A stretch of 64,000 nt of DNA from Candidatus Gillettellia adelgis. GTDB lineage: Bacteria > Pseudomonadota > Gammaproteobacteria > Enterobacterales > Enterobacteriaceae. A model generated the notes under the pieces. The model was not told the DNA's origin and made no database searches. It saw only the letters and a list, made by a program, of their open reading frames with translations. The position numbers and the translations under genes were made by a program. Location of the stretch: the NCBI GenBank assembly GCA_020541285.1, contig CP047043.1, forward strand, positions 1 through 64,000. The letters run 5' to 3'. Positions 33 to 58,142 of this stretch are shown here, piece by piece; the first letter of the stretch is position 1; every line of letters starts with the position of its first letter.

Positions 33-1016
33 ATGAGTATAAAACACACCATGATAAAACTAGACAAAGTTTTAATGAGTATAATATTCGTTTTTTTGTT
101 AATAGGTTGCACGAATAATACGTTGAAATCCGTCCCCATTAGCAGTATAAGTACTGATAGTATCACGACATCTAGTGATATTATTAACTCAACAACTAAC
201 TATGAAAATTATGTTTTTAATAACCGAAGTTATAAGTCTATTCCTAAAAAGAGCTATAGCGGCAACACTTATAGTGTTCAACGAGGAGACACGCTATTTT
301 ATATCGCATGGATCACTGGTAATGGTTATAGAGATTTAGCAAAGATAAATAACATACATGCACCTTATGCACTAAATATTGGCCAAAAAATTCAACTTTA
401 TAAAAATTCTACTAGCAAAAACAACAATACCCTAACAGGGAGGAGGACCTATACTGCGAAACAAGGAATGCCTCGGTTGTTAACCTCTAGGCACCAAATA
501 CAGGCTATTGCAGTGCAATCTCGCTTGAATGACGTACATTGTTATACTACTAATAAAAAACATATATCTTCCTTACTAGATCAGCACATGCGGTCTTCCG
601 TTATCACTCAGGTAGAACACCCATCTGCAACTAATACCTTACCGGTTAAGCATTGGAGATGGCCAACTATAGGTAAGATCATTAATAACTTTTCTTCAGA
701 AGAGGGTGGTAATAAAGGGATCGATATTACCGGCCTTCGCGGACAACCGATTTACGCTACTGCCGACGGTCGCGTAGTATATTCAGGTAATGCTTTACGC
801 GGTTATGGAAATCTAGTGATTATAAAACATAATAACGATTATTTAAGTGCCTATGCTCATAACGATACGATGTTAGTTCGAGAACAACAAGCGGTAAAAG
901 CAGGACAAAAAGTAGCTTGTATGGGTAGCACAGGAACAAGTTCAGTACGGTTACATTTTGAAATTCGTTACAAAGGTAAGTCAGTAAATCCGCTATGTTA
1001 TCTTCCGCAACGGTAA
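33..1016 (+). CDS. nlpD: NlpD, LysM/M23-domain lipoprotein activator of the amidase AmiC
   Basis: Outer-membrane lipoprotein that activates the cell-wall amidase AmiC during daughter-cell separation. The 327-aa product has a lipoprotein signal peptide with a hydrophobic run and lipobox LIGC (about residues 23-26). A LysM domain follows at about 80-123 ([12 protein letters not shown] to IGQKIQL), and a C-terminal M23 domain at about 225-327 ([30 protein letters not shown]). As in E. coli NlpD, the first metal-ligand His of active M23 peptidases is replaced by Asn (NKGID), so it should be a regulator and not an enzyme. It is shorter than E. coli NlpD (379 aa), mainly in the linker. GAGGGGA lies just before the chosen ATG. 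In E. coli rpoS follows nlpD; I see no rpoS here, and a hairpin terminator lies about 320 bp downstream. Confidence 0.95.
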
Positions 1017-3542
1017 ATTAAGAAAATAAATACTATCTTTTCTAAAAACAAGATATAAAGTAACCATGATGCAAATATACCACAGCCAATCACTCGCATC
1101 ATGATTTAAATTTTTAAAGTAATAGCATTGCAACTAAATCTTTAATAAAAGAATTTTATAAAAACACGCTCTTATACACTAAGTATTAGTATGCAATTAA
1201 TATCTTCGCTATTATTCAACACATTTTAGATAAACTCTAGCTATATTTAGGTATAATCAATTGTTATTTGACACTTAATATAAGAGAATTATTCTGCTCT
1301 GCATAGGCAAGTTATATAGACGTATTGCATGACACCTGCTATGTACTAGCGGGTACTTTTTAGTGGATGTTAAAATTACCTTTATTATAGCTACTACAAC
1401 TGGATTGTATTGATTTTAAAAAAATAAAAACATTATTTTAATGATTAAAATTCAATATAATACTATATTATAGTTTTTTTGATTTGTTCATCGTAGAGAT
1501 CAGATAGTAAACTTGTGATTATATATAATATTATATCATGAATCTACTGATCTATAATATTTACTCGATTCAATATCTAACTATATATTATATGTAGGTT
1601 TTTATATACACTCAAAATATAAACTCTAGTAGTAGAGTGTCTACTTTATTAATATAAATAAAATACCATGCACTAGTCTGCCTATATAGTTAAAAACTAA
1701 TATAGCGTCTGACATATGTCATAACGTCATAAAGATATTTTTATGTATATAAGTAATCATCCCCTCTATGTTTACTATACTTATCATTAATATACGATGC
1801 TAAAATTAGCATAGATGGTTTTTAGTAAAGTTTTTCTCAAAACTATTTATTACTAAGTAGTGAGTTTTAGGAGCATACGATTTCATTTATTTTTTAGACT
1901 ACGAGTTATGTAGTCTACAAGCGTTTTAGTCGGTTAATTTAGGCGTTCTATTTAGTCAGATATGCTATATTTTGTACAACGACGATAGATATCACAATAG
2001 CAGACTAGAGTGATATCATATATGCGTATTATAAATTAATATCTTATTCTTATGTTTATAACTAACTTAAATCTAATAATTTTAGGTCATTACAACTTGT
2101 AACATAGAATCGAATCCTTGTGTTTTTGTATTTATGTATTTTAGTCTATTTAGATGGGCTCCATGTTTAGTGAATAATATTTTTACTGATTTATCTCGTT
2201 GTATAGTTAGAAATAATGTAGAATTTTATGCTTTAGAAAGATTACGAATTTAATTATTTTTGTTCTTTTATCTAAATGATAACTTTTAATTTATATAAAA
2301 ATATTCTACATATAATATATCTGCATCTTATTAAAGATGCAGATCTTGAGTAATTTTTAATTATTTATTAAGATATATAAATTAATATAACTAACAGCGA
2401 GTATCGCTAACTTAGTTAGTTTTCTGGTATTGTTTCAAGGAAACATATAGTATGTTTGCTAAAAGCATAATATTGATTTTTTGAAATATTTATATATGAT
2501 TTTATTAATTTAACTGTCATTTGAAATGAATTAATTACAATATTAGCTTATAGCTAATCGTTGTTATTGGTATATAGGGCTTTCAGATAACTTCTGATTT
2601 TATTTTATAATTAGTATTCACACTTATCATCCTTCGGTTGACTATGACTAGGCTATATTACCGTGCATATATGGTAATAAGAGTATTATATTCCTCAAAA
2701 AATTTGCTACATAATCGTCAGTATGTAGTGTTTAAAATATTGGATTAAATCACAAGAGCATATTAGCATTGAACTTTTAATTGCTTTTCTTATACAGCTT
2801 TACTGTAAAGTAAAAAAATAAATAAGTTATTATAATAATATTTATGTGTGATAAATAATATTTATTTAAATATTTATAGCTAGAATCATTCGATAAAATA
2901 GGAGTCTTATGGGAGATCTACATCCTGTACTCATTGGTTAAATAATTCCATAATACTTTAAGATTAAAGATAGCTTTTGGATAATTAAATATGTATATAT
3001 TTTAGAGTATTGGATATTGATTATTACTATTTTATAATAAAAGTATACAAATAATAATTAATAAGTATTAGCTATATTTTCTTTTTTTATATATATTCTA
3101 GTAGGTAAAACATCAACTTATTCAAAAATAACAGTAGATGTACTATCGTTCTAATATTTCCGAAAAATTATTTTTATAAATTTATTCCTTTAAATAGAGC
3201 TTTAAGTTTTAAAACTCTATATTGCAAATGCAAGAGATATTTTAATAAATGTATGCCTTGTGAAGCGTTTTTAATAAAATTATTTTATTAAGTTTATTAA
3301 TCTGTTGGAAACTTGAATAAGACTATAGAAAAATTTCTTTTAATCACATAAACTATAAATTTGTGCGCTATAAATATAGCTATTATAGAAATATAGAAGG
3401 TACTGTTTTATTAGATGACAGAATAAATAATCACGTTACCATAACTGTTATTTTCATCTGAATAAATCATGTACTGTGTTTATTAAAACATTTGATTTTA
3501 GAATATGTTTTAATTTATATTTTTATAATCACTGCATCTATT
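1017..3542. other. Long AT-rich spacer after nlpD
   Basis: No reading frame that looks real. I looked for an rpoS relic, expected after nlpD in enterobacteria, and found none. Apart from the terminator at 1334-1361, the only structure noted is a 7-bp hairpin at 1896-1916. Confidence 0.6.
1334..1361 (+). terminator. Putative rho-independent terminator downstream of nlpD
   Basis: An 8-bp stem (ACCTGCTA with TAGCGGGT, one G-T pair) and 5-nt loop, followed after two bases by TTTTT. It lies on the nlpD strand about 320 bp after the stop codon. Confidence 0.55.
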
Positions 3543-3898
3543 TTAGATAGTTAAAACTTTATGTCACTACTTCAATGCCACGAAAGAGAAAATAGAATAA
3601 CCATATAATTATTTATTTGGTATTTAGAAGTTATATCCGATTTGATCGTTTAATCCTTAACCTCATAAGGCTAAAGTACACCACCGCATCAGCTTGTAAA
3701 AAAGTAAAGTTAGGTGAGTTGAGAAATATAGAAAGCTTTAATAATCATCTGAGTAAAATACCAATAACAACATTCATTGATTATTTAATTAGTTATTACT
3801 GTTGCTTGCGTAAATCATTATGGATAAGACTCATACTCACTGAATCTTATCCTATATTCAAGATATAACACAGCATCGTTGAACTGTGTTTCCTATAG
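3543..3898 (+). repeat. Left arm of a perfect 356-bp inverted repeat
   Basis: Read base by base, this segment is identical to the reverse complement of 5495-5850, and identity ends abruptly at both edges. It holds two hairpins near its inner end: GGATAAGA pairing with TCTTATCC (3822-3852), and AACACAG pairing with CTGTGTT (3867-3890). An 83-codon TTG-started frame exists, but its product resembles nothing I know and I do not call it a gene. No terminal inverted repeats, target duplication or transposase-like frame are seen, so it does not look like a standard insertion sequence. Confidence 0.9.
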
Positions 3899-5494
3899 TT
3901 ACAAAAACTTTTTACTCTATTTTATGATAGAGGATATAACGTAGTGACTATATTTCATAACCCATAAAAAATTTGATAACACATCAGCAAAAACTTTATC
4001 TTATTTGACAATTAATGTATATCTAGTTTAAGTACAACAGCATGTGCTGATACGTTGTGTAAAACTCGCCTAGGCGATAAAATATAGAAATACGGTGTGT
4101 CAGCTAAAAGCATACTGGGTATACTTAGTCTATAAGATCTAACTAATATAATAAGTTACTATGGTTAATAGATTGAACAGGAAAACATTGCTATGTATTG
4201 TATTATTGAGGCTACTTTGATGTTGTATAGACTTATAGCATTCTTTAATGCAATCGAGTTTTTATTATAGACAATACTTTACAAAGTAAGTGCTAATAAA
4301 AAATTAAATTTTATTTTTGTTGCCTACAGTGAGAAACGTGTATCTCATAAAAGATAACAATTGTAACGATACAATACTATATTTTGATGAGCAACGCTTC
4401 TGAAGAAAACAGCAATTTTTATAAAATATAGAATATCGATGTGATGAAATGCCGAATAAAATAAATTTTTGCTGCTAAAAATTAATAAGGTATGGTTTTA
4501 AGTTTATTGATATTCATGAATGCAGTCGTGGTAATAACAACAGCAAAATATGATGTTGATTCTAAAATATTTTAATAAATATATAAGTAGGATATTTAAA
4601 ATGTTTAATTATACATGTTTATTTTTTTGCAAACGTTGTATATATTTATTAGAAAATAGTTCTTTTAGGTTACTAAGATTACTCTTTGTAGTTAAAAGGT
4701 TAGCTTGACTGTAACATTTTTCTTTATGTGTTGCGATAAAATTATTTATTATTAAACGTATATTAAAATAATTATCTAAAACTCTAGTGATGCTATGCTC
4801 ATTTAGTACTATCTATCTTTATGATTATTGTTTCTTTGAACATTAAGCCCTAAGTGAGAAACCTTTATACTGATAGAGCAAAATGCTGTTAGTCTTCTTA
4901 ATCGATAAAAACTATTATGCAAGTAAAATATAATCTATTGTCGTAAATAATATATTGATACAATAATATAATACCCTTGATATGGGTTTGATCTACTAAC
5001 TTTAGCAATCAAATAGTGTTTTAATGCTTATTGTATCTTTATGTTAAATTTAATATTTCTCATTGTAGATAGAAAATAATAGTTTTATTTAACTAACTAA
5101 TACTAAGTATATTCTTCCGTTTATCTTTGATAAAAACTTTATAAAAGTATTATATTGCTAATACGATATAGTATTAATTATCACTGATATTGATCATGTT
5201 ACAAAAGTTTTTATTCAACTATTAATTAGCAAAATAATTAAAAAATCTTTGGTAGTTATTATGCACATATAATATTATATACAAAGATTAAAATAGTAAC
5301 TATGCTAACCTTCTATTCGCTCTTAATTATTATTCTTGTAGTCATGAGAATTCGTAAGCGACAGTATAATCGCTGAATCAAGATTGTTTATAAGATGAAT
5401 GCTCACGAAACTTTGATAAAGTTGTTATATTATATTTTATAAATCAAATTTATATGCACAATATATTATGATAGAGTAGATAGTTTGCTTTTAG
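3899..5494. other. 1.6-kb segment between the inverted-repeat arms
   Basis: AT-rich sequence with no recognisable gene or relic. Recombination between the flanking arms would invert this segment. Confidence 0.6.
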
Positions 5495-5850
5495 CTATAG
5501 GAAACACAGTTCAACGATGCTGTGTTATATCTTGAATATAGGATAAGATTCAGTGAGTATGAGTCTTATCCATAATGATTTACGCAAGCAACAGTAATAA
5601 CTAATTAAATAATCAATGAATGTTGTTATTGGTATTTTACTCAGATGATTATTAAAGCTTTCTATATTTCTCAACTCACCTAACTTTACTTTTTTACAAG
5701 CTGATGCGGTGGTGTACTTTAGCCTTATGAGGTTAAGGATTAAACGATCAAATCGGATATAACTTCTAAATACCAAATAAATAATTATATGGTTATTCTA
5801 TTTTCTCTTTCGTGGCATTGAAGTAGTGACATAAAGTTTTAACTATCTAA
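5495..5850 (-). repeat. Right arm of the perfect 356-bp inverted repeat
   Basis: Exact reverse complement of 3543-3898 over its full 356 bp, about 850 bp upstream of mnmG. In DNA that is otherwise decaying freely, perfect identity implies a very recent duplication, gene conversion between the arms, or an assembly artefact. Confidence 0.9.
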
Positions 5851-6365
5851 GGTAAGCATAATGCTTTTATCATAAATAAAAGAAGCGGACAAGTATTACG
5901 TGTGTTAAATAATTATAAACACATATATTAAATAATTTACGTTATACATAGACAATAATTCAGCGGAATATTAGGATCGAATGGTATTCGCATTGTAAGT
6001 GGAGATAGATAAATGAATGTATATGTAATTGACAGTATGATAGCATAGATTTCGATAGAGTATGTTATTTACGTTTCTGTTAATAGAGGGGACTTACTTA
6101 TAATACAAATGCATAAAGTGCTTAATCATGATTAAAATTTTTTGGCAATGTATTTAACATCTTTACTATAGAATTATAAAAGTCAACAGAAAGCATATTT
6201 TTACTTAAAGTTAATTGTTTTACAATGCAACCAAATACTCAAAAACTAAGGATAGTGCATTAATTTAATGTAAATTTAGATAAAGGTTACACCTAAAAAT
6301 TCACAATAAGAGTGAGTTGAACGAAAAATACACTACAGCTTTGTTCAATAAAAATGTGTAAATTA
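5851..6365. other. Spacer between the right repeat arm and the oriC-like region
   Basis: About 500 bp of AT-rich sequence with no recognisable gene. It may form part of the origin flank, but no strong DnaA box was seen in it. Confidence 0.5.
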
Positions 6366-6600
6366 TATGGATAAATGTTTATAGTCAAAAAAAGCAACCT
6401 TGACGTTAATAAAAATAATGCTTGTTTTGGTAAACTACAAAAAATATTTTTAAATCACAGCTTACTGGTATCGTAATCGTTAATTATCCACAGTTAGTGA
6501 TTATTACTAATCCATTGATATAAAAAAAGAATAAGCACTTACCCACTAAAAATCATTGTCCTAATAAAAATATATAGTAATAATAATATTAAAAAAGATC
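6366..6600. other. oriC: Candidate replication origin (oriC-like) upstream of mnmG
   Basis: In many gammaproteobacteria oriC lies directly upstream of mnmG (gidA), as here. A perfect DnaA box TTATCCACA occurs at 6485-6493, in the orientation expected for E. coli box R1 relative to gidA. A one-mismatch box in the opposite orientation, TATGGATAA, lies at 6366-6374. Towards mnmG is an AT-rich stretch ending in TTAAAAAAGATC (6589-6600), which resembles the reverse complement of the E. coli 13-mer unwinding elements and sits on the correct side. Only one GATC (6597-6600) occurs between 6001 and 6700, unlike the GATC-rich E. coli oriC. Position and one perfect box are what I see; origin function is inferred. 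Confidence 0.5.
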
Positions 6601-6701
6601 TGTATTTAAATTCTAATTAATATTACTTGGTTAATGTTGGAAACTTAAGTAGAATTTTACCTGCATGTGTAATCTTTCTTGATGTACTGAGGTAGTATTT
6701 T

Positions 6702-8579
6702 ATGTTTAATTTTGAGAAATTTGACGTTATCATTATTGGTGGTGGTCATGCCGGCGCTGAAGCTGCTTCGGCTTCGGCGCGCATAGGACGTCAAACTCTA
6801 TTGTTAACACAAAATATTGATACACTAGGTCAAATGTCTTGTAACCCAGCAATTGGTGGTATTGGTAAAGGGCATTTAGTAAAGGAGATTGATGCACTTG
6901 GTGGTTTGATGGCTACTGCAATCGATCATTCTGGTATTCAGTTTAGGATACTCAACGAAAGTAAAGGTCCTTCAGTGCGCGCAACTCGCGCTCAAGCCGA
7001 TCGCAGACTCTATTGTCGAGCGATACGCATTGCCTTAGAGAATCAGCCTAACTTAACGATTCTTCAACAATCTGTCGACGATTTTGTTGTAAAAAATGAT
7101 TATATTACTGGCGTAGTCACACAAATGGGGTTAAAATTCTATGCTAAAGCAATAGTGTTAACCGTAGGTACTTTTCTTAATGGTAAAATTCATATTGGCT
7201 TAAATAATTATAAAGGGGGCCGTGCCAATGATCCTCCAGCAATCTCGTTGTCAAAACGTCTGCGAGAAATGCCGTTGCGCGTTAATCGCTTAAAGACTGG
7301 TACACCACCACGAATTGATGCGAGAACTATTAATTTTAGTATTTTACGAGAACAATCAGGTGATATGCCAATGCCGGTATTTTCTTTTATGGGTAATGCG
7401 AATCAACATCCAGAGCAGAGGGTCTGTTATATCACTCATACTAATGAAAAAACTCATGAGGTAATCCGAAAGAATCTAGATCGTAGTCCGATATACACCG
7501 GGATAATACAAGGAGTTGGTCCGCGGTATTGTCCATCGATTGAAGATAAAGTAATGCGGTTCTCTGATCGTCCTGCACACCAGATTTTTCTGGAACCGGA
7601 AGGTTTAACAAGTAATGAGATTTATCCAAACGGTATCTCTACCAGTCTTCCATTTGAAGTGCAAATACAGATTATTCGTTCGATAGAAGGTATGCAGAAT
7701 GCTTGCATTGTTCGCCCTGGTTATGCTATTGAGTACGATTTCTTTGATCCCCGTGATCTAAAGCCAACATTAGAGAGTAAATTAATTCATGGGCTTTTTT
7801 TTGCAGGACAAATTAATGGCACTACTGGTTACGAAGAAGCAGCTGCTCAAGGGGTGTTGGCGGGTCTTAACGCTGCTCGTTATGCTAATCAAGAAGAAGG
7901 TTGGTCGCCAAGTCGCAACCAATCCTATCTTGGTGTGCTGGTAGACGATCTTAGTGCTCTTGGCACTAAAGAACCATATCGCATGTTTACATCGCGTGCT
8001 GAATATCGCCTTCTGTTGCGTGAAGATAACGCTGATTTGCGTTTAACTGAGATAGGTCGAAAACTTGGTTTAGTGGATGATATGCGTTGGACGCGATATT
8101 CTGAGAAACTAGAGCGTATTGATCAAGAACGTCAGCGTCTACGTAATACATGGATACATCCACATTCTGAGGATGTGGATCACATTAATATGCTATTAAA
8201 AAAACCTTTAGTGCGCTCAATCCACGGTGAAGAACTATTGCGTCGTCCTGAAATAGATTATTCGTTACTCACTAAAGTTGTTACTTTTTCACCAGCACTA
8301 AAAGATGCTCAAGCTGCTGAGCAAGTTGAGATTCAGATTAAATATCAAGGCTACATTGTGCGTCAGATGGCAGAGATTAAAAAACAACAGCGCTATGCAA
8401 ATACCATGTTACCCTTAGATCTCGATTATCACGAAGTATCTAGTCTGTCTAGCGAAGTGATCACAAAGTTAAATCATCATAAACCTTACTCTATTAGTCA
8501 AGCTTCACGTATATCTGGGATCACCCCCGCTGCAATCTCTATTTTATTAATTTGGTTAAAAAAACAAGGGTATCTATAA
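6702..8579 (+). CDS. mnmG: MnmG (GidA), tRNA uridine 5-carboxymethylaminomethyl modification enzyme
   Basis: FAD-dependent partner of MnmE that builds the 5-carboxymethylaminomethyl group on wobble U34 of certain tRNAs. The 625-aa product is full length (E. coli 629). The FAD-binding GGGHAG motif is at residues 13-18, followed by [18 protein letters not shown]; later conserved blocks are [28 protein letters not shown] and [13 protein letters not shown]. The ATG has a GAGG about 10 nt upstream. It lies next to an oriC-like region and is followed by the relic of rsmG, its usual neighbour. The atp operon, which follows rsmG in E. coli, does not follow here. Confidence 0.97.
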
Positions 8580-15275: not shown

Positions 15276-17366
15276 ATTTTAATATTACTGAAACGATGCG
15301 TGAATATTAACCCGCTCCGCCAATTAAATCAGTGACGGTATCTCCATGGAAATTAAGAAGTGTTAGTGCGGGACTCCAAAATAAATTATCCCAATACTTT
15401 AGGTTGTTTAACAACAAAATTAATCACTATCTATGCTGCGGATGAAAAATATATTTTAATATCGTATTAAGACTATTCAGAAATTTTACTCTTTTCAGTT
15501 GGTAACCTTTGTAATCTAAATTAGTCGCAGCGTCAAATTAAGTGTTATACAGATGACAAAATAGCTGTGCATAAAAAGTAAAGACATTGATAGTAAACTA
15601 AAAATATTGCGGTTTTACTAGCATAGTACAGATTACTAGTTTGCGTCATTTATTATGTTTTTTCTGTATCGGCAGTGCTGCAAGATATCTTTTTCTATTT
15701 TTTCAATGAATTATTCAATATTTTCTTATTACTAGAAAATAATTATGGTGTTTTGTTATAATGAAATTATAACTTCTACAGATTAAAAGTGAAGCGCTTT
15801 TTGTTCCTTTGCGTGTAAATAATAACTATTATACCGTAATAGTAGTGTAATAATATTCTTAATGTTAGATAATTAGCGAATATAGTATTATATAGTTAAT
15901 AGATCATACCATACATACTATGGTGTTTTAGGTTTAGTTAAATATCATAAAAACTATATTCGTTATAATAAATAACTGCTACTTTAAGTGCGTATTATCT
16001 AGTCATATACAGTATAATTACCAGCATTGCTAAATTGGGTGATAGGCGTCCTGATCTTATTCTTGAAGCGTTTAATTTTGAGACATCTTGAAAATTTTTA
16101 CTATAAGTGATTAGCTTAGAATTGTATATAGTAGATATTAAAAATCAGCATTTGTGCTTTATGATCATTGTGTTTAACAAACACTAATGTTTTTTATATA
16201 ACACGTTATATATACTGTTTTAGTGATATCTTTGCCGTAGCGAAAATACAGTTAATTTGCATTGTTTGTTTTATTATCGACCAGTCTTGCATGAAAAGTA
16301 TGTTATGTATATACTTATTAATTCATAATCGGAGTTTGCCTAAATCACTATTTACGATAACAGGCGATGTTTTACTGTGATACATATCATATTATAGATT
16401 ATAGATTATAGATTATAGATTATAGATTATGGATTATGGATTATTATTCTGGTCATGTTGTTTAAGTTGATCATATTTATAATGTTTAGTTTAGTATAAT
16501 CTAGCACAATGTTACCATTGCAAGCTTTCCTAATTAGGAAGCAACCATATTATCAGTGCTATTTTAGCAGAATAATGTTGCTGTGATTGATTGCCATTGT
16601 AGTATTTATGTTTGATGTCAGTTTATTACATTCTAATACTATTTCATATAGTATACTAAGGTGTTATCTAAAACCCTTATGGTATAGCTACGCAATGATG
16701 GTGAAAATGATAGTTGAAATAGTATAGTAGGGATGTGTTATTATCCACCAGTTGAATAATATTACGCATAATACGAAGCAGACTATTTTACGTGATTAAT
16801 AAGGTCTTCAATATTTACTGTGTTCACATTTCTTATATAGGTCGTGCGTTCTAGTTTTAACTTGGATTTTTTGGGTTTTCTGATATGTTGACATTTATAT
16901 TGTTAATAAAAGCTAAAGTGTTAAATATCGTGATGTTAAAATGAAGGTTCCATTATAGTAAAGCGAATAACTGCCATATGATCATATTTATTTATGTTAC
17001 TCGTGATTTATGTTACTTGTAGTATTGATATGTTTCAGAACATGAGATGTATTTAATATATTTAGTAAGTACGATTTTATCGTTATCAGATACGATTACT
17101 TATAAGGCTGCAAGTATTTGCAGTGATTATGAATATGTATTATATAATACATGCTAGCAAAATTTTTTGTTAGAGAGAATTAGTAATGCAGTCTGTCTTT
17201 AATAAGAAGAGGTAGACTACGTAATGTAGGTAAAAGAGTAACGAAATGTTATAGATAACTTACAGCAAACAATAGATAGGCATCATATGTTAATATGTTT
17301 TAAAGCACACATTATTAGTGTTGCGTAAAACGCAAAGTTCTAGGATACTTAGATGGTTTGCGGGGA
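15276..17366. other. Spacer between aroK and ftsB
   Basis: About 2.1 kb of AT-rich DNA between divergent genes. No relic was recognised. It contains the heptanucleotide array at 16391-16445. Confidence 0.6.
16391..16445. repeat. Heptanucleotide tandem repeat (ATTATAG)n
   Basis: Five perfect copies of ATTATAG, then two of ATTATGG, then a partial copy. Non-coding simple-sequence tract. Confidence 0.95.
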
Positions 17367-27563: not shown

Positions 27564-27615
27564 ATCATACACTGCATCCCATAATACTGCAGTATTATGG
27601 GATGCAGTGTATGAT
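27564..27615. repeat. Perfect 52-bp palindrome with no spacer
   Basis: The half-site runs from ATCATACACTGCATCC through CATAATACTG, and the second half is its exact reverse complement, meeting at CTGCAG. The flanking bases do not pair. It ends 117 bp before the nupC ATG. It has no unpaired loop and no T-run, so it is not a typical terminator. Confidence 0.93.
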
Positions 27616-54728: not shown

Positions 54729-57700
54729 TCATTCAGCACAAATAATAGGATAATTCGAGGTAAGGTTATAAGGTCGGGTGATATTATATCGTGCTATGGG
54801 CAGCAAGTAGCGTTCTGTTTCTAATAAAATTTGCGCTAAATCAATTTTTTTTAAATGACTTAATACTCGTTGTATGTACGGATCGTCTCTTTCACCCGAC
54901 ATATACTGATTGCCATACCAGTTCTGTAACAATTTATCCTGTGCTTTAAGTTGCACTTTGTGTTGCCAGTCAATCTGTTGTGTTTTTGGATGGTAACATG
55001 TTTTTAGCCACGCCCAGCCACTTTTGTGTAGTAGAATAAGTGGCTGGGATAAACCGTATTGATATCCTTCTATCAGTTCTGATAAATATTTTTTGGCATG
55101 GTCTTGTGTAAGCGCTGCAAAACACCAGGTAGTATTTTTTTTACCATATAAACGACTTATTCCTGTTCCACCAATATAGCAGTATATTAGATGCTCTAGC
55201 CATAGTAAAATTCCATCAATAATTGACAAATTAGCAGGGCGCCAGCGTAGCAAACCATCATTTTGTATATGAGTCAAGCAACCGTTAATATATACACCCC
55301 CAATCTTAATATTTAGTTCTAGGTGTTCACTAATCTTGATCTCGGATTTTATTTTATCGGCTAATTCCATGATTTGTTGTTGTTGGTTATACCAATAAAG
55401 TTCACCAAAAACGCCGCAGGGTAATTGACCAGTAGCACGTATTTTTTTGAAAAGATTATTTGAGTTATCACCCTCTATCAGAGTGTTTAATAGTTGGTTG
55501 TTTAATTGATAACAAGTACTATTATCGAGTATAAATGGCTCTTCTTCAGATAGAATGTCATTGTTTAGTTTAAAACTAACACCAAGACGTAACTGAAAAA
55601 AGGCTCGGATTGGGTGATAGTAAAATCGCCGTAGATCATCCAGCGAAATACTTGGTTCATCTTTAGGATATAATGGTCGAATAAAAGGTAAAGATGTCGC
55701 ATTGCACTCATGCGTTACGGGTAACCATATGGTAGCATAGCTTTGTTGTTTAGAGTCTGGCAAGAAGTTTTCAGAAGCAAATGGCATACGTGTATGCCAT
55801 TGAAGCAAGTGTTGACCGACGCGCTGACCGCTACTATCAACATCTAAATTTTCATCGCCTGGTAAATAATAGCTGCGTTTAAGATATTCCAGGAGCTCTG
55901 TCAGCAGCACTGAAGGATAACGTTTTTTATTGTCTTGAATAGAACGACCAATATAGCTAATATATAAATGCTGTTGCGCTGACAGAATCGTCTCAAGGAA
56001 GAGATAGCGGTCATCGTCGCGTCGGCTACGATCGCCACATTCTGGATGCTCTGACAGTAGGTCAAACCTAAGTCGAGGAGGAGTGCGTGGGTAAACGCCG
56101 TCATTCATTCCTAAGAGGCAAACTACTTTATATGGAATAGAACGCATGGATATTAGCGTGCAGAAATTGATTTTTCCAGATATAACATATCGACTAATAG
56201 GTTCGTTCTTAAGATGCGATATCAGATCGTCCCGTAAAATACTGAACGATATAGCATGTGAGTAACTTGCTGCTATACCAACGTTGATGATTTTTTGCCA
56301 TTTTTCCTCAATTAATTTAATTACAACTTCATTGTCTCTTTCTTGTACAAAGAAGGTATCCAGAAGTTGGCGGCATAAAGGCAACCATTCTTTTAGCGAT
56401 CTTGTTTCGCTTAACCATTTTCGCCATTGGCTAAGGTCAGCAAGAAGATTCGCCAGTTGTCCAATAAGTTCAGCCGCTAACCCATTTGATTCATCATATG
56501 GTAAAATGCCTCGCCAACAACCAGCTTTGCTGTCCATTGCATAACCCAGAAGCATACGGGTAATGCCAAAACGCCAGGTGTTTTGTCCTGTTTCTGGTAG
56601 ATCAAGTTCACGTACATTATCGTCATCTAACCCCCATCGCACACCGGATTCGCCTACCCAATAACGTAATAGTTGTAGTTCTTCTGTATTAATCATAAAA
56701 CGTGCTGCTAGTGCGGGCACTTCTAGTAAACCAAGAACTTCTTCACTAGTAAATCGGCTATATGGAAGGTTGAGTAATGAAAGAAATGCTTTTAGCATTA
56801 TGTGTTCTTGATGTGCTTTATGGTCAGAAATTGAAAAGGGTAAATAACATTCTGAAGAAGCATTGCCGAATATAGCCTGAATATATGGTGTATAGCTATT
56901 GATATCCACCGCCATCACGATAATATCGTGCAGCATTAATTCTAAATCTTCAGACAGCATGGTTAGCAATTGATCGTGCAATACTTCGATTTCTCGCAAT
57001 GCGCTATAGCAGAGATGTAAACTAAAAGAACGGTCTTTAGGTGCTAACCGGCGCTTAGACACACTGCTCTTGAATATTTCTGGTGTAATGCCAAGAACTG
57101 CGGAATCTTTACATTCTAGTATGTCATGCTGAATAGTGTGTAGCATATTATCATCAGGAATATCTACAAAAGCATCTACTTCTTCTATTTCTGTTAATTG
57201 CGATAAGAGAAAGAGATAGTCTCGTCCTAATTTTCCCCAGGAGTCTAACAAGGAGTTACTGAGTTTTTGTGTTTTTTTATCAAGTAATATTATTGTTTGA
57301 TTGAAATCATAGAATAAGTGTGGTTCTTGTATACAACGGTAAGTGTATTTTTTTTTGTTTTTCAATTGAGTTAGCAATGGATGATTATCAATATCACTCC
57401 AATAGTAGCGGCAAGGGTTAGTGAACATAAGATGAATATCGATATGGTGACCCAGCGCCTGCAATGTTTTAAGATATACAGGCGGTAAGGCTGATATGCC
57501 AAAGATAAATATTCGTTTTGGTAAGTGAGGTGGGCAATGTTTTTTGGTATCTAAAACGCTAATAAATCGATTATATAAGTTAGTACGAGGCCATTCTGAT
57601 TTTTCTAACTTGCAAATATACTGAATGAATCGTCTCCATAGTCGAGCTTGCCACCGTGCAGTCTCAGACAGATCATTAATACATTGGCCGTGCTCCCAGC

Positions 57701-58142
57701 TTTCTAGCCATTGAGGACGATATATGAGGTATTGGTTAAAAAGATTAGCTATTCGGTCAACTAATTGATGAATTTTATGTTTTTCATTATCGTCTACGAG
57801 ATAATGCTGTAGTGGTAAAAAATCTGGTATAGTCAATAATTCTGGTAAGAGCCACATCAGTTTCCATCGCATAGTATCTTTGTTAAAAACATTTTCTTTT
57901 GGAACATCAGGTAACACATGGGTAAATATCTTCCAGATAAACATTTCTGGAAAGAAAAAAGCAATATTAGCAGAAATTCCGCATGTTTCTGCTAATTGTA
58001 TTTGTATCCATTGTGCCATGCCATAGTTGTTCACTACGATAATTTCCTGTTGCAAAGGATCTGGCAAAGGATTATTATCTATCAATTCGCTCATTATTGT
58101 TTTTAATCGATGTAATTGATTAGAATGATAAACTGTAAACAC
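54729..58142 (-). CDS. recC: RecC, subunit of the RecBCD (exonuclease V) complex
   Basis: The subunit that recognises Chi and splits the duplex in RecBCD during double-strand break repair. The product is full length: 1137 aa from a GTG start (MFTVYHSNQLHRL), against 1122 in E. coli, where the protein begins MLRVYHSNRL. The GTG is preceded by AAAGGA at a good distance; an ATG 11 codons upstream is less likely. Collinear blocks include MAQWIQIQLAETCGI, IFGISALPPVYLKTLQALG, HLMFTNPCRYYW, VRWGLDDDNVRELDLPETGQ, MRSIPYKVVCLLGMNDGVYP and RSRRDDDRYLFLETILSAQQ. ptrA, recB and recD do not follow it here, so its partners must lie elsewhere or be gone. Confidence 0.96.
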   Translation of the reverse strand: MFTVYHSNQLHRLKTIMSELIDNNPLPDPLQQEIIVVNNYGMAQWIQIQLAETCGISANIAFFFPEMFIWKIFTHVLPDVPKENVFNKDTMRWKLMWLLPELLTIPDFLPLQHYLVDDNEKHKIHQLVDRIANLFNQYLIYRPQWLESWEHGQCINDLSETARWQARLWRRFIQYICKLEKSEWPRTNLYNRFISVLDTKKHCPPHLPKRIFIFGISALPPVYLKTLQALGHHIDIHLMFTNPCRYYWSDIDNHPLLTQLKNKKKYTYRCIQEPHLFYDFNQTIILLDKKTQKLSNSLLDSWGKLGRDYLFLLSQLTEIEEVDAFVDIPDDNMLHTIQHDILECKDSAVLGITPEIFKSSVSKRRLAPKDRSFSLHLCYSALREIEVLHDQLLTMLSEDLELMLHDIIVMAVDINSYTPYIQAIFGNASSECYLPFSISDHKAHQEHIMLKAFLSLLNLPYSRFTSEEVLGLLEVPALAARFMINTEELQLLRYWVGESGVRWGLDDDNVRELDLPETGQNTWRFGITRMLLGYAMDSKAGCWRGILPYDESNGLAAELIGQLANLLADLSQWRKWLSETRSLKEWLPLCRQLLDTFFVQERDNEVVIKLIEEKWQKIINVGIAASYSHAISFSILRDDLISHLKNEPISRYVISGKINFCTLISMRSIPYKVVCLLGMNDGVYPRTPPRLRFDLLSEHPECGDRSRRDDDRYLFLETILSAQQHLYISYIGRSIQDNKKRYPSVLLTELLEYLKRSYYLPGDENLDVDSSGQRVGQHLLQWHTRMPFASENFLPDSKQQSYATIWLPVTHECNATSLPFIRPLYPKDEPSISLDDLRRFYYHPIRAFFQLRLGVSFKLNNDILSEEEPFILDNSTCYQLNNQLLNTLIEGDNSNNLFKKIRATGQLPCGVFGELYWYNQQQQIMELADKIKSEIKISEHLELNIKIGGVYINGCLTHIQNDGLLRWRPANLSIIDGILLWLEHLIYCYIGGTGISRLYGKKNTTWCFAALTQDHAKKYLSELIEGYQYGLSQPLILLHKSGWAWLKTCYHPKTQQIDWQHKVQLKAQDKLLQNWYGNQYMSGERDDPYIQRVLSHLKKIDLAQILLETERYLLPIARYNITRPYNLTSNYPIICAE

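Follow-up and report, generated by a model that had tools for sequence, protein, structure and literature searches.

How repeats originate and are maintained in bacteria that have lost RecA is an unsettled question. Inverted-repeat recombination without RecA was reportedly seen on E. coli plasmids by Bi and Liu in 1996. Portiera aleyrodidarum of Bemisia tabaci is described as a RecA-less, reduced symbiont with long intergenic regions and structural polymorphism, and its repeats are reported to be maintained by gene conversion (PMC4285135, PMC7821994). In Tremblaya princeps, a 7,032-bp region between 71-bp inverted repeats is reported in both orientations (PMC4285135), and for a second strain one orientation only is given (PMC3620526). 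Duplicated loci of Tremblaya are described as homogenised, the concerted evolution being put down to recombination genes of its partner (PMC4479817). In starving E. coli, at least two inversions have been attributed to template switching inside the replication fork, the dimension of which is put at 1.5 kb; two of the tabulated events, of 1.5 and 2.4 kb, carry the mark IN, which we read as inversion (PMC3161906). In quasipalindromes, one imperfect arm templates the correction of the other, and events induced by 5-azacytidine are described as largely RecA-independent (PMC6357072).

The genome analysed here is like that of Portiera in being a reduced, RecA-less, symbiont-like genome with long intergenic DNA and with repeats that appear to be maintained by conversion. 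However, one Portiera genome is reported to contain 23 direct and 17 inverted repeats (PMC4285135/PMC7821994), whereas the pairs sampled here are inverted and local and, again unlike Portiera, have a spacer of 1.3 to 2.4 kb that usually holds one gene. Tremblaya shares with this genome a segment between inverted repeats and homogenised duplicates, but its recombination genes are supposed to be supplied by a nested partner that carries them, whereas the present genome yielded no RecA match of its own and has several pairs independent of one another. The sizes of the events in starving E. coli are close to the spacers found here, although those were laboratory events seen as inversions, whereas here they would correspond to standing inverted duplications in a natural genome. 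In quasipalindrome mutagenesis, as in the upkeep proposed below, an arm is corrected from the opposite arm, but that work concerned an 18-bp repeat (PMC6357072), while the arms here measure 0.2 to 1 kb and are separated by over 1 kb. Behaviour related to that proposed here is thus already described for Portiera and Tremblaya. A literature search found no report of the repeats of this genome, subscription papers being mostly outside its reach.

The window (the whole stretch of 64,000 nucleotides that was analysed) carries near its left end an inverted repeat which the preliminary description had called perfect over 356 bp. This is correct: 356 of 356 bases match, far beyond chance. The features of the window to which the text refers are the following.

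33 to 1016, plus strand: intact nlpD-like gene (LysM and peptidase M23, from its domains), left-hand neighbour
3543 to 3898, plus strand: left-hand arm (356 bases) of the inverted repeat, matching the right-hand arm exactly as its reverse complement
3899 to 3920, plus strand: inner tail of the left arm, decayed similarity past the perfect core (gapped alignment; p = 0.0017)
3899 to 5494, no strand: spacer, unique, 1,596 bases, no recognisable gene (longest ORF 52 aa)
5471 to 5494, minus strand: inner tail of the right arm, decayed similarity past the perfect core (gapped alignment; p = 0.0017)
5495 to 5850, minus strand: right-hand arm, in perfect reverse-complement match to the left-hand one
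6366 to 6492, no strand: DnaA-box-like sites, possible remnant of an origin region (TTATCCATA at 6366, minus; TTATCCACA at 6484, plus)
6702 to 8579, plus strand: intact mnmG (gidA), right-hand neighbour (from homology)
54783 to 58142, minus strand: recC homologue (from homology)

Identity had been said to stop sharply at both ends of the arms. The outer ends are indeed sharp (in-register comparison of 30 x 30 bases, p = 0.17), but at the inner ends a decayed tail of about 22 bases follows the core (p = 0.0017; matched by 22 of about 5000 random pairs). The first differences after the core stand at 3899 and 3902, and gapped alignment extends the pair to 3543-3920 and 5471-5850 (380 columns, 98.4% identity, spacer 1,550). 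With unregistered 150-base flanks, 43 of 300 shuffles scored as well for the inner and 13 of 300 for the outer side, and ancient palindromy of the spacer was tested and rejected. In the whole single-contig genome of 1,413,209 bp the arm is present in these two copies and nowhere else, and the spacer occurs once. If the arms recombined, the segment 3899 to 5494 would be inverted, and such flipping may take place at this locus. Apart from this pair, the window contains a single exact inverted match of ≥ 24 bases, a perfect palindrome of 52 bases at 27564-27615; a 7-base unit forms a short tandem array at 16391-16430.

The 5.7 kb upstream of mnmG (1017-6701) contain no ORF of ≥ 100 aa and a few DnaA-box-like sites. 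This is where oriC, mioC and asnC are expected. The proximity to the origin claimed previously is plausible, given a cumulative GC-skew minimum at about 1 to 2 kb within the 35 kb scanned and the DnaA-box-like sites upstream of mnmG. DnaA is encoded in the genome. Reading 1017-6701 as a pseudogene of a Serratia origin neighbourhood was abandoned (a single weak match, E = 0.018), as was an origin-specific function of the repeat, since the other pairs described below sit far from the origin. MnmG itself shows 81% identity to two Serratia species, and among the further genomes listed out of 295 drawn the best value is again 81%; only 40% of the sampled DNA lies within ORFs of ≥ 100 aa. The host looks like an insect symbiont of the Serratia lineage with a decaying genome.

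One possibility raised at the outset was a novel small non-autonomous or RNA-encoding element. In its fuller form, a small mobile or RNA-encoding element would be present in two inverted copies, or the whole unit would be a 2.3-kb element with long terminal repeats. The arm does contain an open frame of 90 codons (reached by 7 of 1000 shuffles and by none of 196 neighbouring windows) and a GC content of 29.3%, above that of most of its immediate surroundings (reached by 5 of 389 windows). This value is ordinary for the non-coding DNA of the genome (54% of 2326 sample windows), and, the arm being GC-rich locally and ordinary overall, GC-biased conversion is no more than a possibility. The two hairpins described earlier reduce to a few hairpin-prone stretches, which an element might also be expected to show; they are unremarkable because the arm does not clearly fold better than shuffles (z = -0.03 and -1.37). 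Rfam at the gathering score recognised only tRNAs in the window, and 3400-6700 was empty up to E = 5; with the z values, this led us to reject a structured RNA gene.

Pfam searches on all six frames of the arm returned no family, and the absence of a transposase claimed earlier therefore holds as far as Pfam goes. The arm has no match in plasmid or phage collections or in E. coli, and against 59 other relatives one 35-base match (E = 5e-4) was found. When the complete 2,308-base unit was sought in the 295 family genomes drawn, this genome among them, only short AT-rich matches in ten others appeared. The outer ends show no target-site duplication. With only two copies in the genome, arms unrelated to those of the other seven pairs and no Rfam or Pfam match, such an element is exceedingly improbable. 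An insertion sequence or MITE was rejected because of the two copies, the lack of a Pfam family in arm or spacer and the lack of plasmid and phage matches. An 83-aa protein within the arm was also dropped, no relative being found among plasmids or viral contigs. A regulatory inversion switch, a further option of the preliminary description, is unlikely because the spacer has no ORF longer than 52 aa and no Pfam match. Nor does the locus resemble a site-specific inverton: the repeats are 356 bases long and unrelated between loci, and the spacer offers neither a gene of more than 52 aa nor a Pfam family.

The repeat is one of a set. An all-against-all comparison covered the window, the end of the contig and another 38 stretches of 20 kb (844 kb, 60% of the genome), and pairs of ≥ 100 bp with a spacer of 200 to 6000 were collected; those cut by the end of a stretch are missed, and the set thus comprises at least eight.

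L035: 1018 columns, 99.1% identity, spacer 1559
L020: 874 columns, 99.2% identity, spacer 1549
L028: 694 columns, 89.5% identity, spacer 2397
L029: 606 columns, 98.0% identity, spacer 1616
L053: 535 columns, 92.3% identity, spacer 2273
Window: 380 columns, 98.4% identity, spacer 1550
L043: 232 columns, 81.9% identity, spacer 1275
L039: 164 columns, 72.6% identity, spacer 2206

Among the matches listed, all eight spacer-bearing pairs of ≥ 100 bp in the 844 kb are local and inverted (two-sided sign test, 0.008), and no direct or dispersed pair of that length with a spacer was found. The 20 matches listed comprise these eight pairs, nine self-palindromes (30 to 82 bases), two tRNA-like matches between stretches and one tandem. 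The last, an 88-bp overlapping tandem (94%) at L032 9814-9961, is the sole within-stretch direct repeat listed in the 844 kb. Arms of different pairs are unrelated in the all-against-all comparison. Extrapolation gives about 13 pairs in the genome. The spacers range from 1275 to 2397, an interval defined after the data had been seen, in which random pairs of non-coding 400-bp blocks from the same stretch land 7.9% of the time.

None of the eight pairs has an arm overlapping an ORF of ≥ 100 aa. Seven of the eight spacers hold one gene, the window spacer being the exception (P = 0.0006 for at least seven under random placement with both arms held non-coding). The bracketed genes are asd, cysS and ribF (identities also supported by E. 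coli matches), and those for an amino-acid permease, a DUF496 protein, a YgfZ-like protein and a 337-aa protein without Pfam match. In E. coli, asd, cysS and ribF are essential. The bracketing may most simply reflect survivorship, because deletion of the whole unit would remove a needed gene. For L035, L020 and the window, the frames of the arms were scanned with Pfam and gave no family, and Rfam on stretches L020, L028, L029, L035 and L053 found rRNA, a tRNA and rncO, none of them within an arm.

How the differences are distributed between arms bears on whether these pairs are corrected. The simplest alternative is that they are one-off inverted duplications of different ages, whose arms merely diverge and whose perfect members are young. 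Identities graded from 99 to 73% fit this. The oldest pair, L039, has uniformly spread differences (2090 of 5000 permutations), and in L020, L029 and L035 the clustering is no longer significant when 40 columns are removed from each end (4096, 1464 and 1065 of 5000 permutations, respectively), as their differences lie mostly at the tips. In the window pair no differences remain after trimming, and its sharp outer ends also agree with a single event. By itself, this pair fits a recent single duplication nearly as well as conversion.

What one-off duplication explains poorly is the pattern in two older pairs with mosaic arms. L028, 89% alike overall, has 61 difference events and an identical run of 171 columns (0 of 5000 permutations, and again 0 of 5000 after trimming), and L053, 92% alike, has 33 difference events and an identical run of 168 columns (0 of 5000; trimmed, 4 of 5000). 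Counted per 25 columns, the differences in L028 number 8, 4, 9, 9, 4, 2 and 2, stay at zero for the next six blocks and increase again after that; the profile of L053 is alike. An identical core of about 170 columns between diverged ends suggests, at the level of the alignments, gene conversion. L043 is suggestive (197 of 5000 permutations, 80 of 5000 trimmed). A pair in G142, a relative without RecA match, also argues against simple ageing: in L118 the outer 550 columns differ at about 26% and the remaining ones at about 3%, 12 of the differences in this low-divergence remainder falling in one 50-column block.

In the four youngest pairs, moreover, homology runs past the core at four out of eight tips (p ≤ 0.002 against random pairs from the same stretch), namely the window inner, L020 outer, L035 outer and L029 inner tips, the last being a mere run beyond a single mismatch. 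The remaining tips are not significant (L029 outer, p = 0.078; L020 inner; L035 inner; window outer). Taken with the mosaic pairs, this makes one-off duplication of all pairs unlikely. Of the four options first proposed, gene conversion that keeps the two copies identical has the best support, mainly through the sister loci, and the window pair is best read as a young or recently homogenised member of the set whose spacer has no gene.

Alternatively, the arms might have been duplicated or collapsed in silico or joined by chimeric amplification, and identical cores with different edges are also expected from repeat collapse. However, the sister pairs have diverged arms (7 differing columns in L020, 9 in L035, 12 in L029, 40 in L053, 42 in L043, 43 in L039 and 72 in L028). 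Four of them are only 73 to 92% identical, which an assembler would not invent. The flanks at the arm ends are unrelated, and one pair coincides with an inverted gene. An assembly artefact, also among the original options, is thus disfavoured, and we regard an artefact of either kind as very improbable.

The inverted gene is cysS. The genes cysS and folD point towards each other in E. coli, and seven of nine relatives fetched have the same order; in one of the others (L161) the two genes are on opposite strands but rearranged, and in the other (L162) folD is not within the fetched stretch. Here folD and cysS lie on the same strand with an arm of L053 between them, and, judged by gene order, this orientation of cysS is as expected after an inversion between the L053 arms. 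Through this sister locus, the flippable segment of the preliminary description may gain some indirect support. A larger rearrangement could also explain the orientation of cysS, because the far neighbour of cysS has changed as well (an oxidoreductase gene instead of ppiB/lpxH). Since asd/yhgN and rpsT/ribF/ileS retain the E. coli arrangement, only one of the three genes tested is flipped.

No match to RecA (PF00154) was found in the genome, even with stops read through, whereas all 14 of 14 controls matched. The genome thus offers, as far as its sequence indicates, no RecA of its own of which the repeat could be a substrate. The usual neighbours of recA in E. coli, csrA and alaS, are present in the 60% sample, which gave no match to recA, recX, pncC or mltB; the decay of recA therefore looks old, or the gene has been deleted. 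Homologues of recB and recD (L055 12191-17550) and of recC are retained although RecA was not found. The same sample has no match to ruvABC, sbcCD or recF, and it also lacks dnaA, which is present in the genome. A recG match (38% identity over 348 residues) lies at the end of a stretch.

The persistence of recB, recC and recD would suit a relict pattern, in which RecA made the conversion tracts before a recent loss of recA, and, according to Lopez-Madrigal et al. 2015 (PMC4479817), identical repeats can survive the loss of recombination genes for some time. Against such a recent loss stands the apparently old decay, or the deletion, of recA, in a genome where arms of up to 1 kb are 99% identical. 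We consider a relict improbable.

RecA was also sought in 15 reduced relatives; eight had no match and seven did, including G103, whose match is only a fragment with three stops. Five relatives were sampled for pairs (spacers 200 to 6000, length ≥ 100). G172 has one inverted and one direct pair in 400 kb, a further pair with a spacer of 182 falling below the limit of 200; G142 has one inverted pair in 400 kb; and G060 has one inverted pair in 400 kb (L086), which stays in the counts but was rejected as a member of the class because, with its uniform divergence, it resembles a couple of paralogous genes. No pairs were found in 200 kb of G159 or in 200 kb of G197, in which RecA is present. The probability of eight pairs in 844 kb here against three inverted pairs in 1600 kb of the relatives is 0.011. 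Loss of RecA alone is not enough, because G172, G060, G142 and G159, all without RecA match, have few or no such pairs. Neither loss of RecA nor long intergenic DNA is sufficient, because G142 has both (coding DNA 38%, as little as in this genome) and yet one pair. That pair, L118 4732-9257, is a local inverted repeat with 1.9-kb arms containing no ORFs of 80 aa.

On balance, it seems probable that this genome contains local inverted duplications made by template switching at the fork, homogenised and sometimes flipped without RecA, and that the window pair is one of them. The growing strand at a stalled fork would jump about one fork width (roughly 1.5 kb) to the opposite strand, copy a few hundred bases backwards and jump back, giving X-A-S-A'(inverted)-Y. 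Both arms, partly single-stranded within one fork, may then pair and copy each other without RecA. Such mutual copying would keep the core of the arms identical while their ends decay, and occasional crossovers between them would flip the spacer. Survivorship may shape what is seen, since much shorter spacers would be unstable, pairs further apart would not be homogenised and pairs around a needed gene would resist deletion. We put forward tentatively, as a possibility, the stronger statement that a RecA-less bacterium continuously makes, corrects and flips gene-bracketing inverted duplications whose spacers are limited to about one replication fork.

Because there are at least eight independent pairs of graded age, the RecA independence of conversion and its bound at the size of the fork become directly testable. 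If the account given here is true, the chromosome would be a standing record of template switching within the fork, and a natural counterpart to the fork-internal template switching of laboratory E. coli.
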